Shown: in pieces, positions 1,224-22,986 of the stretch
Layout of the letters: each line of letters opens with the position of its first letter
How positions within the stretch are numbered: the stretch's first letter is position 1
Source of the DNA: a virus
Length of the DNA: 25,397 nt
Virus record (IMG/VR): IMGVR_UViG_3300049156_000033
Coordinates: 1-25,397 of that record
Direction: 5' to 3' (one strand)
Translations under genes and position numbers: made by a program
Notes under the pieces: model-generated
What the model saw: only the letters and a program-made list of their open reading frames with translations
What the model was told of the DNA's origin: nothing
Databases searched by the model: none

Positions 1224-1242
1224 CCCAAAGGAGAGAGACGAC

Positions 1243-1917
1243 ATGGCGAACTACCAGAGAGGAATGAACATGCGGAAGCTGTTGTGGGGCGGATTCGGGG
1301 TATTGGTGCTGATCCTGATAGCGGTGGGCATCTGGGGGTGTACGGAGGAGGGCGACACGTACAATCGGGTGACGAATCCGTGTTGCGACGACACCTGTTA
1401 CCCCATTCACACCTGCGACGACGCGACAGGCTGCACCGACCCGTGCGCCAAATACGAGATTTGCTTCGAGGGCAGGACGTTCAAGATCCTGAAGAGCGAG
1501 TGGGAGGACTACAAGGCCCGCGGCGCAGTGAAGGGCAAGTGCCCCAAGGGCGATGATGACGATGACGACAACGGGGACGACGACGATGATGATGGGGACA
1601 TGGTGCTCGTTTGTCACTTTGGCCAGAACATCTGGGTGCTCGAGTCGTTGCTCCAGGAGCACCTGGCGCACGGGGACACCCGGGGCAAGTGCCCGATCGG
1701 TGACGACGACGATGATGACGATGACGAATGCGATCCAGCGGTGGAATGCTGCGTGGTAGATGGCAAGACCTTCATCTGTCACTTCCCACCGGGGAACCCT
1801 GGGAACTACCACACGCTGCACATTGGCTCGAGCGCGGTGCCGGCGCACCTGTCGAACCACCCGGGCGACCATTGTGGATACTGCTTGGATCCGGAGCCGT
1901 GCTTCTGGTGTGACTGA
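1243..1917 (+). CDS. Cys-rich three-repeat lipoprotein-like secreted protein with poly-Asp linkers
   Basis: A 224-residue protein. The ATG at 1243 follows AAAGGAG by about 9 bases. Residues 10-32 form a membrane segment ending in GIWGC, so Cys33 could be lipidated, although Trp at -2 is unusual for a lipobox. The mature part has about 19 Cys. Three related units follow: YEICFEG...GKCPKG (71-103), VCHFGQ...AHGDTRGKCPIG (123-153) and ICHFPPGNP...VPAHL...HCGYC (178-214). They are separated by runs of 6, 6 and 8 Asp (104-109, 112-117, 154-161) coded by mixed GAC/GAT. CHxPPGN with a later AHL motif recurs in secreted bacterial proteins, but I cannot name a family. A metal-binding or surface role is inference. 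It overlaps the next frame by 8 bases. Confidence 0.75.
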   Translation: MANYQRGMNMRKLLWGGFGVLVLILIAVGIWGCTEEGDTYNRVTNPCCDDTCYPIHTCDDATGCTDPCAKYEICFEGRTFKILKSEWEDYKARGAVKGKCPKGDDDDDDNGDDDDDDGDMVLVCHFGQNIWVLESLLQEHLAHGDTRGKCPIGDDDDDDDDECDPAVECCVVDGKTFICHFPPGNPGNYHTLHIGSSAVPAHLSNHPGDHCGYCLDPEPCFWCD

Positions 1918-2482
1918 GGAGCTCAGGAAGAAGATCGAGCGATGCGTGGACGAGCTCGAGCCCGGGACGGTGACCCGTCTCGACTGGATGACGCCGACCG
2001 AGTTCATGCTGTTTATGCAGGAGTTGGCCAATGAGAGGAACCAGGGCAAAGGCGATCCGGAGGGAGGCGACGAGCCTGTACGGGGCAGCCCGGACGATGA
2101 TGAAAGACTGCCCGCCGCAGAAGACGATCTACATGCGGCTGAAGAAGATGCACACAGGCCGGATGCCACTCTCGAGAGACCTTCTCTACCGGCCGGTGCG
2201 GCCGATGCGGATATATCAGTTCAACTGGTCCAGGCGCAAGGCCTGGCTCCAGGAATTCTTCAACAACCTCAAGGAGAAGAGACGATGAAGGCTGGTGTCA
2301 AGACAACCGAATTCTGGATGACCATTGGTGCCGCGGTGCTCGGGCTCCTGGTGAGCCTGGAGGTCATCGGCACCGAGGACATGGACGCGATCCTCAAGGT
2401 GATCGCCCTGATCCTGGGTCTGCTGCCAGCAGCGGCCTACAATCTGAGTCGTGGCCTAGCAAAGATGGGCCGTGACGACTAA
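1910..2482 (+). CDS. Long open frame overlapping two shorter genes (uncertain)
   Basis: From a GTG at 1910, overlapping the previous stop as GTGACTGA, this frame stays open to 2482. Its first 40 codons look coding (charged helix, then DWMTPTEFMLFMQELANE). The middle (about 2035-2280) becomes Asp/Glu/Pro/Ala-rich and is weaker, because the +1-offset frame there is more gene-like. The last 65 codons equal the holin-like gene. It could be a short gene disrupted by a frameshift into the 2031-2288 frame, a real 190-residue fusion, or an N-terminal fragment with no stop of its own. Confidence 0.35.
   Translation: MTEELRKKIERCVDELEPGTVTRLDWMTPTEFMLFMQELANERNQGKGDPEGGDEPVRGSPDDDERLPAAEDDLHAAEEDAHRPDATLERPSLPAGAADADISVQLVQAQGLAPGILQQPQGEETMKAGVKTTEFWMTIGAAVLGLLVSLEVIGTEDMDAILKVIALILGLLPAAAYNLSRGLAKMGRDD
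2031..2288 (+). CDS. Basic hypothetical protein
   Basis: An 85-residue, strongly basic protein whose ATG at 2031 follows AGGAG by about 8 bases. The C-terminal half looks real, with LLYRPVRPMRIYQFNW and KAWLQEFFNNLKEKRR, and its third codon positions are mostly G or C. Its TGA overlaps the next ATG (ATGA at 2285-2288), typical of coupled translation. It lies wholly inside another open frame, and a frameshift could join it to the codons starting at 1910. No family recognised. Confidence 0.6.
   Translation: MRGTRAKAIRREATSLYGAARTMMKDCPPQKTIYMRLKKMHTGRMPLSRDLLYRPVRPMRIYQFNWSRRKAWLQEFFNNLKEKRR
2285..2482 (+). CDS. Small hydrophobic protein, holin-like
   Basis: A 65-residue protein starting MKAGVKTTEFWMTIGAA, with AAGGAG about 9 bases before the ATG. 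There are two hydrophobic segments, about residues 11-26 (ending LLVSLEVI) and 36-52 (ILKVIALILGLLPAAAY), with a short acidic turn between them and a charged C-terminus (KMGRDD). Small two-segment proteins that begin with a KTTEFW-type stretch are common in phages and are often guessed to be holins. No endolysin gene is in the window, so a lysis role is inference. It may also be read as the C-terminal part of the frame opening at 1910. Confidence 0.6.
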   Translation: MKAGVKTTEFWMTIGAAVLGLLVSLEVIGTEDMDAILKVIALILGLLPAAAYNLSRGLAKMGRDD

Positions 2483-4358: not shown

Positions 4359-4907
4359 TTGCGGCGGATCGAGCGAGACGATCTCGCTTATTGGATCTGG
4401 ATGTCCCGGGAGGAATGGGAGCTCGTCTATGCGCTCTCCCAGGCCTTACAGGAGTCTGACCTCCTCCCCCGGGACATAGGGCTGAATTTCGCCTTCTACA
4501 ATACGATTTTTGGCCTCCAGAAGAACGGCTTCCATTTCAAGCAGATCCGGCTGTCTGATGACGGCTGGATGTACTTGTTGGGCGATCAACCCCGCGAGCG
4601 CCGAAACGAGCTCTTTGTCCGGATGTTCGAGCGCAACGTGGCGCCCGACTACGAGGTACACCTCAAGGTGGCCCTGAGAGTCGCCAGGGAGCACGAGCTC
4701 CCCGACCAGATCATCCAGACCCTCGAGACCGCCCAGGACCGCACAGACCGCCGCCTGAAGCAGCGCAAGCAGGCCTGGGCCTCAGTGCCGAAGGAGCAGG
4801 TCAAGATACTGATGGACGAGTTCTACGAGCAACACGCAGCCCGAGAGAAGTCCATAAAGGGCCTGAGACCGATCATCCAGCAGATCGACAAGGAGACCAT
4901 CAATTGA
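4359..4907 (+). CDS. Hypothetical helical protein
   Basis: A 182-residue protein with a TTG start directly after the previous TAG, placed by GGAGGAG just upstream. An alternative ATG lies 42 bases inside (MSREEW). The sequence is helical, aromatic and charged (LAYWIWMSREEWELVYALSQ). Its C-terminal third is a long basic/acidic helix from about residue 125 (DRRLKQRKQAWASVPKEQV). No family recognised. It overlaps the GroES-like gene by 4 bases, so it may be co-translated with it. Confidence 0.6.
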   Translation: MRRIERDDLAYWIWMSREEWELVYALSQALQESDLLPRDIGLNFAFYNTIFGLQKNGFHFKQIRLSDDGWMYLLGDQPRERRNELFVRMFERNVAPDYEVHLKVALRVAREHELPDQIIQTLETAQDRTDRRLKQRKQAWASVPKEQVKILMDEFYEQHAAREKSIKGLRPIIQQIDKETIN

Positions 4908-5200
4908 CTGAAATAACCCCCCTGGGGACGCTGATTCTGGTGATCCCCGACGCGCCCGAGGAGCTCAGTGGCGGGCTGGTGAAGCCCGACAACCTACGTG
5001 AAGAGAGACCCGAATCCGGGATCGTCAAATCCACCGGGCCGCTCATAGGTGATAACCGCATCTTGGTCGGCTCTCGAGTCGTCTTCCCCCCCTACGCCGG
5101 CCACGACTATCGGCTCGACGGAACGCTCCTGAAGCTACTCGATGCCTCCGAGGTCTATGGAGTGGTCAAGGACGAAGGTGATCCCGTTGCTGCGGCCTGA
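4904..5200 (+). CDS. GroES-like co-chaperonin (first of a tandem pair)
   Basis: A 98-residue protein, the usual GroES length. The TTG start overlaps the previous TGA (TTGA) and has AAGGAG 8 bases upstream. It shows the GroES layout: PLGTLILV strand (6-13), a mobile-loop region with SGGLVKP (22-28, compare GGIVL in bacterial GroES), SGIVKSTGP (38-46), VGSRVVF (55-61, compare VGDIVIF) and a closing LLKLLDASEVYGVV (75-88). GroES caps the GroEL ring and the loop hydrophobic residues contact GroEL. No groEL is in the window, so it presumably works with the host chaperonin, as T4 gp31 does for capsid protein. That role is inferred. Confidence 0.8.
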   Translation: MTEITPLGTLILVIPDAPEELSGGLVKPDNLREERPESGIVKSTGPLIGDNRILVGSRVVFPPYAGHDYRLDGTLLKLLDASEVYGVVKDEGDPVAAA

Positions 5201-5585
5201 ATGGATCGACAGGATCTCCCCTGCCAATATGCGCCTGTTCGTCGAGCGGGACGAGCAGCCCAAGACCTACGGCACCTTCATCATCATCCCCGACCGCTAC
5301 CGCCAGGGCACCAGAACCCACATGGGCACCGTCCACTCCACCGGCTTCGGGGTGCGACACGTCCGCAAAGGCGACCGGGTGGTGATCTCCTCCGGCGTCG
5401 GCCGGAAGATCGTCTTCGGTGACCGGGCCCTGTATGTCTGTTTCGAGAGCGAGCTCTTAGCCACAATCACGGGCGAGAAGCTCGAGGATCTAGGGGAGGC
5501 GAAAGAGGGCAGGTTTCCCGTGGAACATCCGATGGGAGACGAGATTGTGGCGGACGAGGGCCGAGTCTGGGGCAAGGAGGACTGA
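5178..5585 (+). CDS. Second GroES-like co-chaperonin with C-terminal extension
   Basis: A 135-residue product from a GTG at 5178 with AGGA upstream; an ATG at 5229 (MRLFVERD) is the alternative and would give 118 residues. The core matches GroES: MRLFVERDEQPKTYGTFIII (18-37) with a mobile-loop-like GTFIIIP, HMGTVHSTGF (48-57), VRKGDRVVI (62-70) and ALYVCFESELLATI (84-97). An acidic tail of about 38 residues follows that GroES lacks. It overlaps the first copy by about 23 bases but is clearly diverged from it, so this is not a recent duplication. The second loop differs (FII versus LVK), so the two may form mixed rings or serve different partners; this is inference. Confidence 0.65.
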   Translation: MIPLLRPEWIDRISPANMRLFVERDEQPKTYGTFIIIPDRYRQGTRTHMGTVHSTGFGVRHVRKGDRVVISSGVGRKIVFGDRALYVCFESELLATITGEKLEDLGEAKEGRFPVEHPMGDEIVADEGRVWGKED

Positions 5586-21412: not shown

Positions 21413-22174
21413 ATGCCAATGACGTTCAAGCAAGGAAACCCGGCCGGTGGAGCTCCTGGGATGCGCCGGCCACAGCCCGGTCAGCCGGGGCCGCAGCAGG
21501 CGCCAGGCGCCATGAGGGGCAGACAGCTCTCTCCGCTGCGTCCCGGAGGCCCCTTCCAGCCCCCGGGTCAAGGTGGCGGCATGGGCACCTTCCCGGGTCA
21601 GGGCCCAGGCCCAGGAATGGGTCGGCGCCGCTTCAGACCACCCCCCTGGAGACGCCGACGCCCCGGCTTCCCTGGTGGCGACATGGGCCCCGGTGGTCCG
21701 GGACAGCCCCCGGGTCCGATGCCCACTAATCTCGACCAGGTGAACGCCTACGACGAGGAGCCGCTATACGCCGGCCAAGAGCCCCTTCCGGGGACGGCTC
21801 CTCCTCCGGTGTCCGAGCCGCTGCCGCCAGCACCCGGAGACTTCGGGCCTGGTGGTCCAGGCTTCCAGACCGGCGCCGATATTGTGCCCGGTCAGGGCAA
21901 CCTACCCCCGTTCATCCAGCAGATGTTCGGTGGTCCGGGTGGCTTCCAGAAGGCCATGATGAACAACCCCTGGATTCGCCGGATGATGATGCAGCGAAGG
22001 GGCATGGGTCCAGGGATGGGACCAGGAATGGGACCAGGGATGGGACCGGGTGGACCTCAAGGCCCCCCAGGTGGAGGCCAGGATCCGATGCAACTCCTGA
22101 TGCAGATGTTCGGTGGGGGTCAGCAAGAGGGGCCTGACCGTACCAGCCGTGCCGGCTACATGTGGAGCGGATAA
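21413..22174 (+). CDS. Gly/Pro/Met-rich collagen-like low-complexity protein
   Basis: A 253-residue protein with GGAGG before the ATG. The first 110 residues are Gly/Pro/Arg/Gln-rich with a basic patch (GRRRFRPPPWRRRRPGFPGG, about 70-89). A small folded part follows (LPPFIQQMFGGPGGFQKAMM, MNNPWIRRMMMQRRG). Four tandem GMGP units then lead to QDPMQLLMQMFGGGQQ. The Met content is striking. It may be a flexible internal virion or membrane-active protein; this is inference. The stop TAA overlaps the next ATG. Confidence 0.6.
   Translation: MPMTFKQGNPAGGAPGMRRPQPGQPGPQQAPGAMRGRQLSPLRPGGPFQPPGQGGGMGTFPGQGPGPGMGRRRFRPPPWRRRRPGFPGGDMGPGGPGQPPGPMPTNLDQVNAYDEEPLYAGQEPLPGTAPPPVSEPLPPAPGDFGPGGPGFQTGADIVPGQGNLPPFIQQMFGGPGGFQKAMMNNPWIRRMMMQRRGMGPGMGPGMGPGMGPGGPQGPPGGGQDPMQLLMQMFGGGQQEGPDRTSRAGYMWSG
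22002..22049 (+). repeat. 12-base tandem repeat coding GMGP
   Basis: Four successive near-identical 12-base units of the form GGCATGGGTCCA/GGGATGGGACCA encode Gly-Met-Gly-Pro each time. Third positions vary slightly among copies, so the repeat is not perfectly fresh. It lies within the low-complexity gene. Confidence 0.75.
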
Positions 22175-22986
22175 TGACTGTCGGCAACCCGGACATGCAG
22201 CAGGGTGGCTACACGGACCTGCTCAACCAGACGGGGCAGGAGCCGACCGCTGATCCAACGTCGTTGGGGGGTGCCAACGTCTACGACGTGTATCAGTCTG
22301 CGCTCCCGGAGATGGAACACGCCCGGGACTGGAACATCAACCAGGCGCTCGGCAAGGCCGGTATTGGTGGCGGTCGCTTCTCCACCGCTACCGAGCGCAA
22401 CGTCATGGACATTGGTGCTCGAGCAGCCAACCAGCAGAATAAGATGCTGATGGATCTGCTCTACAACCAACAGCAGCAGGATCTCAACCGCGGTCTCCAA
22501 GCCTCACAGCTCGGGCTCCAGGAGGCGGGGCTCGAGGACCAGATGATGCAGGACCGGATCAACCAGATGTTCGGTATGGGCCAGTGGGAAACGGGTCGCC
22601 AGGACCAGTTCGCCAACATGGCCTACCAGGACTTCGAGCAAAACAAGCTCGGCTGGCTCCCTCTGCTTATGTCGTGGGCGGGTGGGGCAGCGCCACCGGC
22701 ACAGGGGGGCCCAAGCGGGAGCATGACCGAGGGTGGCCCGGGTGCGATGGACTACGCCATGCAGGCCGGAATGATGTACGCCATGATGAAGTCAGACGAG
22801 CGCCTCAAGGCCGACATCGTGCGGCACGAGCTCGAGGTCATCCCCGGTGTCAAGTTCGCCACCTGGAAGTGGAGGGCGACCGGACGACCCGGTGCTGGTG
22901 TCATCGCTCAGGACGTGGAGAAAGTGTTGCCGGCAGCGGTCGGTGAGATCGACAGCTACAAAGCAGTCAACTACGCGATGCTCTAG
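22174..22986 (+). CDS. Gln/Met-rich virion protein with C-terminal Peptidase_S74-type chaperone domain
   Basis: A 270-residue protein; the ATG at 22174 overlaps the previous TAA, while a GTG four codons upstream is the alternative. Residues 40-160 are helical and Gln/Met-rich (NQQNKMLMDLLYNQQQQDLN). A Gly-rich linker (170-192) leads to KSDERLKADI (206-215), GVKFATWKWR (225-234), GAGVIAQDVEKVLP (240-253) and YKAVNYAML (262-270). These match the intramolecular chaperone that folds and cleaves itself off trimeric phage fibres. Ser207 and Lys212 have the Ser-x4-Lys spacing of the dyad. The chaperone usually sits on fibres, so its place on this small protein is odd. Confidence 0.7.
   Translation: MTVGNPDMQQGGYTDLLNQTGQEPTADPTSLGGANVYDVYQSALPEMEHARDWNINQALGKAGIGGGRFSTATERNVMDIGARAANQQNKMLMDLLYNQQQQDLNRGLQASQLGLQEAGLEDQMMQDRINQMFGMGQWETGRQDQFANMAYQDFEQNKLGWLPLLMSWAGGAAPPAQGGPSGSMTEGGPGAMDYAMQAGMMYAMMKSDERLKADIVRHELEVIPGVKFATWKWRATGRPGAGVIAQDVEKVLPAAVGEIDSYKAVNYAML

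Follow-up and report, generated by a model that had tools for sequence, protein, structure and literature searches.

Ltp of phage TP-J34, a superinfection-exclusion lipoprotein, is built from a lipid anchor, a spacer, and a repeat domain, and negative charges in its repeats are said to matter (PMC3952083). Lipoprotein-type signals also occur among the spanins of phages, and a Trp-containing lipobox, AWAC, has experimental support in a u-spanin (PMC6139136). The gene considered here encodes a small protein with a hydrophobic N-terminal anchor, three related units bounded by Cys, and Asp-rich spacers (Table 1). It was found in a window of 25.4 kb, by which we mean the whole stretch of DNA that was analyzed, a phage sequence from a virus record with genes for a terminase, an SU10-type portal and adaptor, a capsid protein, SSB, and Cpn10-like proteins.

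The locus and its neighbors

The three-module ORF is real, with an intact reading frame and a ribosome-binding site that was rated good, and its stop overlaps the next ORF, which starts at position 1910. All of its recognizable neighbors lie on the same strand; these include the terminase, portal, and capsid genes, upstream of which the ORF is located and to whose structural set it does not belong. The weakly holin-like gene follows less than 400 bases downstream. No relative of the whole three-module protein was retrieved from viral contigs or deposited phages, and searches of viral contigs with the terminase, portal, and capsid proteins returned no close phage relatives. In deposited phage records, the terminase found distant matches only, in three records, and the portal found none.

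Other features of the window were recorded along with the ORF. Upstream, positions 810–1223 encode a protein whose C-terminal CxxC...CxxC segment resembles a zinc ribbon (weak match to Pfam DUF7129, E = 0.0008), roughly the first 800 bases (1–800) contain no convincing plus-strand gene, and a short possible membrane protein is encoded on the minus strand at 22–171. Downstream are two overlapping co-chaperonin-like ORFs, of which the first (4904–5200) matches PHROG GroES (E = 0.0006) and the second (5142–5585) matches Pfam Cpn10 (E = 1e-7), and a protein (22162–22986) with a C-terminal Peptidase_S74 intramolecular chaperone domain, as in tail fibers.

Table 1. Positions, in the window, of the three-module gene, its parts, and nearby elements.
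Feature	Position	Strand	Remarks
Shine-Dalgarno-like AAGGAG	1228..1233	+	9 nt before ATG; read from sequence
ORF, three-module anchored protein	1243..1917	+	224 aa, 19 Cys, 34 Asp; ATG start
Hydrophobic anchor / lipoprotein-type signal, residues 13-33, end IWGC	1279..1341	+	hydropathy 2.44; relaxed lipobox pattern
Cys-rich stretch CCDDTCYPIHTCDDATGCTDPC, residues 47-68, ahead of unit 1	1381..1446	+	no family match
Unit 1, residues 74-100, CFEGRTF...GKC, short form, no His	1462..1542	+	closest in type to L043 His-poor units
Acidic spacer 1, D6-NG-D6	1552..1593	+	mixed GAC/GAT codons
Unit 2, residues 124-150, CHFGQNI...GKC, short form, full Cys/His/Asp set	1612..1692	+	profile match
Acidic spacer 2, D8	1702..1725	+	read from sequence
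Unit 3, residues 179-214, CHFPPGN...HCGYC, long PPGNP form, HPGD variant	1777..1884	+	profile match
Small two-helix membrane protein, weakly holin-like	2285..2482	+	PHROG holin E = 0.008, 0.012; two hydrophobic segments

Anchor and spacers

The original prediction of a lipoprotein-like signal sequence stands in part. Residues 13–31 are strongly hydrophobic (Kyte-Doolittle mean 2.44), lie behind a basic MRK start, and run into the sequence AVGIWGC. The lipobox itself is less regular, with IWG preceding Cys33; the Trp at −2 caused the strict PROSITE pattern to fail, and the relaxed form passed. A C-terminal transmembrane segment is absent, the best 19-residue hydropathy past residue 40 being 1.06 and the value near the C terminus −0.16. 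The hydrophobic anchor and the secreted nature of the relatives indicate that the protein is probably exported and membrane-anchored, in agreement with the surface location first suggested.

The Asp runs that separate the Cys-bounded units are exactly 6, 6 (with Asn-Gly between), and 8 residues long, within the range of 6–8 given in the original prediction, in which they were also linked to calcium or metal binding. At like positions in relatives, the spacers are Pro-rich, Ser/Gly-rich, or Asp-rich, and often non-acidic; because they vary in type in this way, the Asp runs look more simply like flexible acidic spacers. The Cys cluster at residues 47–68 and the absence of His from unit 1 had both been overlooked.

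Three copies of one domain

Units 1–3 are copies of one domain. This relationship, proposed from inspection of the sequence, was confirmed with a profile built from 23 outside relatives, from which the window's own units were left out. The profile found units 1, 2, and 3 at 14.7, 36.6, and 54.8 bits, far above the maxima of 6.0, 6.0, and 10.1 bits obtained with 1000 shuffles of each; all three units thus align in a profile comparison, with unit 1 clearly the weakest match. The domain signature can be written C-H-[PPGNPxNx]-HTI...AH-x2-HGD-x2-G-x-C. It occurs in a short form of 27 residues, CHKGRTITISASALKAHLNHGDVAGSC, and in a long form in which PPGNPxNx is inserted behind Cys-His, and measured from Cys to Cys, units 1 and 2 (27 aa) are of the short form and unit 3 (36 aa) is of the long one. 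The His/His/His/Asp set is found in units 2 and 3, with the third His of unit 3 shifted by its HPGD variant, and is missing from unit 1. The HPGD variant recurs in L071 and L077, and Haladaptatus has a similar NHPKD. Units 1 and 2 share the ending GKCPxGDDDDDD, and the 37-nt DNA repeat (81%) that runs across the join at these ends suggests that a unit was duplicated along with its spacer.

Conservation was followed in 75 units, a sample biased by the retrieval of some units with patterns demanding the very residues counted. Of the two Cys, the first was kept in all 75 units and the second in 74 of them, the exception being a unit that is cut short, and the three His and the Asp were kept in 70, 71, 69, and 71, respectively. 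Both Cys were retained despite the loss of at least one His in unit 1 and in units of L043 (two), L032 (two), L050 (one), and L072 (one). From this retention we infer a structural disulfide and a separable His/Asp site: judged by this pattern, the Cys pair probably forms a disulfide, and the His/Asp set would be a site apart from it, possibly one that binds metal. If there is a metal site, the conserved His/Asp residues of units 2 and 3 are more likely to form it than the Asp runs. The order of the copies also recurs elsewhere, since two His-poor units precede a single complete one in L043, and, less strictly, a degenerate unit is followed by a complete one in G007 and G645, two genomes of one phylum, much as in the phage protein.

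The domain was matched by no entry of Pfam-A, NCBIfam, PHROG, or PDB at a curated or significant score, and a literature search for the motif returned nothing relevant. A weak Pfam match to DUF2835 in a short-form relative extended to 1 of 39 units only and was taken as chance, and the PDB sequence matches to P0001 were artefacts of its acidic runs, leaving no meaningful sequence match. We know of no experiment on this Cys/His domain.

Predicted structure

AlphaFold2 models were made of unit 3 with 38 relatives and of the full-length protein with five sequences. In the unit 3 model, which has a mean pLDDT of 84.5 (~92 over residues 11–40), a helix follows two strands; the full-length model is weak overall (mean pLDDT 59.6). 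In the latter, strands are predicted at residues 70–75 and 78–83 with a helix at 84–92 for unit 1, strands at 120–125 and 128–133 with a helix at 134–142 for unit 2, and strands at 175–180 and 190–195 with a helix at 196–205 for unit 3. Each unit is accordingly modeled with the same β-β-α fold, a predicted hairpin followed by a helix. A structure search of PDB and BFVD yielded no significant match, metal proteins included; the best PDB chain of similar size, a BRK domain (E = 3.5), was not used.

Distribution of the domain

A search with unit 3 retrieved haloarchaeal plasmid proteins, and pattern scans led to relatives in viral contigs and cellular genomes. Bacteria and archaea from scattered groups have the domain in their extracellular proteins, frequently in tandem copies and often adjacent to Asp-rich linkers, where it stands behind signal peptides, beside LPXTG-type anchors, or within lipoproteins. 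The earlier view that ICHFPPGN and VPAHL are motifs of secreted proteins is borne out by these exported bacterial and archaeal relatives. With a threshold of E ≤ 1e-5 per genome and a profile that took in the window's units, the domain was detected in 23 of 297 genomes of the phylum of G004 (a Rhodothermales MAG), 12 of 46 of that of G007, 3 of 201 of that of G008 (a Chloroflexi MAG), and 3 of 297 of that of G003 (a MAG labeled Desulfosudis). A profile of His-poor units only found nothing in the 297 genomes of G004's phylum, in a search that had no positive control.

About 30 uncultivated viral contigs of IMG/VR carry the domain, and there were no matches to it among 50,697 deposited phage records, so that its presence in a phage is indeed unusual, as had been remarked. 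Twelve domain-bearing IMG/VR records were tested for a terminase, of which three matched the model, two of them over the cut-off; some of the contigs that lack a match may be host DNA. Four IMG/VR contigs with four sample numbers (L029, L036, L040, and L041) share an identical 231-aa open frame, which contains a lipoprotein-like protein that has the domain and a stretch rich in Asp and Cys. In five further IMG/VR records (L002, L003, L007, L030, and L034), the domain is followed by collagen-like Gly-Pro-Pro repeats and then by another C-terminal domain.

Proposed role and alternatives

In the mechanism that we propose, the N terminus would be inserted into the host membrane or lipid-linked to one, and the remainder of the protein would be exported. 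Three small hairpin-helix modules would be carried on flexible Asp-rich spacers, and a disulfide between its two Cys probably closes each module. In units 2 and 3, the likely task of the His/His/His/Asp set is to bind a metal ion or other ligand; unit 1, from which the set has been lost, probably serves as structure or spacer. The infected cell would thereby make an envelope-anchored display protein that binds something at the envelope, like superinfection-exclusion lipoproteins such as Ltp. We give this explanation as a whole a probability of about 0.4. Its anatomy and the extracytoplasmic location are very likely to be correct; the exclusion-like role, proposed by analogy, is rather doubtful. 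No exclusion protein, Ltp included, was seen to be homologous, the off-consensus lipobox speaks against the explanation as a whole, and the holin-like neighbor suggests late, lysis-time expression, with which exclusion fits less well. A broader statement goes further: the hairpin-helix domain would be a widespread extracytoplasmic one that has not been described before, its His/Asp site, distinct from the Cys pair, would bind a metal or ligand, and phages would have taken it up for display at the envelope, in exclusion or lysis, with His-less copies as spacers. This statement is unlikely to hold in full.

The same holin-like gene favors an accessory role in lysis, in which the protein would serve as a periplasmic or outer-membrane member of the lysis cassette and, like an o-spanin, link or disrupt the outer membrane. 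o-Spanins are lipoproteins with periplasmic Cys, and Trp in the lipobox is known from spanins. In L032 and L038, an endolysin-like gene is found no more than ~1.5 kb from a domain gene, and the gene of a domain lipoprotein in L028 overlaps another that has a weak match of the tape-measure/transglycosylase type, although such neighborhoods are few and may be due to chance. However, no endolysin was recognized in the window, no i-spanin-like partner was seen among the neighbors by eye or with PHROG (spanins are very diverse), the C-terminal transmembrane segment of u-spanins is absent, and the domain is widely found in secreted cellular proteins unrelated to lysis. Taken together, a lysis function seems somewhat unlikely. 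Decoration of the virion, by the whole protein or by its modules, is improbable: the gene lies upstream of the terminase, portal, and capsid genes on their strand, and the domain gene of L025 is directly behind a Gly-rich ORF of unknown function, but the phage protein has a membrane or lipid anchor and its gene is outside the structural set. Lipoproteins are rare in the virions of tailed phages.

Two further explanations give the protein either a different task or none. Scavenging or storage of metal at the cell surface, with the Asp runs and His set acting as a buffer for Zn, Cu, or Ca, would suit the conserved Cys-His...His-x2-His-Gly-Asp set and the 34 Asp residues, but unit 1 is without any His, the spacers of relatives are often non-acidic, and the structure search brought up no significant metal protein; we regard this role as distinctly improbable. 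That the gene was recently captured from a host, or that the contig is chimeric, with no function for the phage in either case, might be supposed from the mainly cellular occurrence of the domain, but this is highly improbable in view of the intact reading frame, the overlap of the stop with the next ORF, the position of the gene within a same-strand array, and its codon usage. The ORF has a GC3 of 0.80 and a codon choice as expected from the window's other genes (z = 0.05), which offers nothing in favor of recent transfer, and the original suggestion of host gene capture is therefore not upheld for a recent event. An old acquisition, or a donor of like composition, is possible.

Envelope display, the reading preferred here, concerns a small exported domain that is common to bacteria, archaea, and phages and is unnamed in the libraries searched. 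The three-copy protein is a compact natural construct for testing the ligand of the domain, and with its His-complete and His-less copies, what the Cys pair does can be told apart from what the His set does.

Comparison with known systems

The cellular proteins that contain the same domain by profile (WP_248652440.1 of Halorussus limi, WP_227380007.1 of Haladaptatus halobius, L012, L015, and L016) resemble the phage protein in being exported and in having tandem copies, often with Asp-rich spacers. They are mostly larger proteins with single or paired copies, whereas the phage protein is small and anchored and has three. Protein P0004 of L043 (396 aa), encoded on a 119-kb IMG/VR contig that had no match to the terminase model and is thus only a possible phage sequence, also combines a signal peptide-like start with three tandem units, of which the complete one is last. 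It differs in its long N-terminal part, its Pro-rich spacers, and its exclusively short-form units; in the phage protein, the set is complete from unit 2 onward, and unit 3 has the long form.

With the o- and u-spanins, the phage protein shares a lipoprotein-type signal, and it has a holin-like neighbor; a Trp lipobox is known in u-spanins and Cys is usual in o-spanins (PMC6139136). Unlike these proteins, it is modular, and it has neither a recognized i-spanin partner nor a C-terminal transmembrane segment. The comparison with Ltp is one of plan alone, in that Ltp belongs to a Gram-positive host and has a single Ser-rich spacer, and its repeats are not expected to be related to the units described here. 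Within that limit, both proteins follow the same design, in which an anchor and low-complexity spacer sequence carry repeated small domains.
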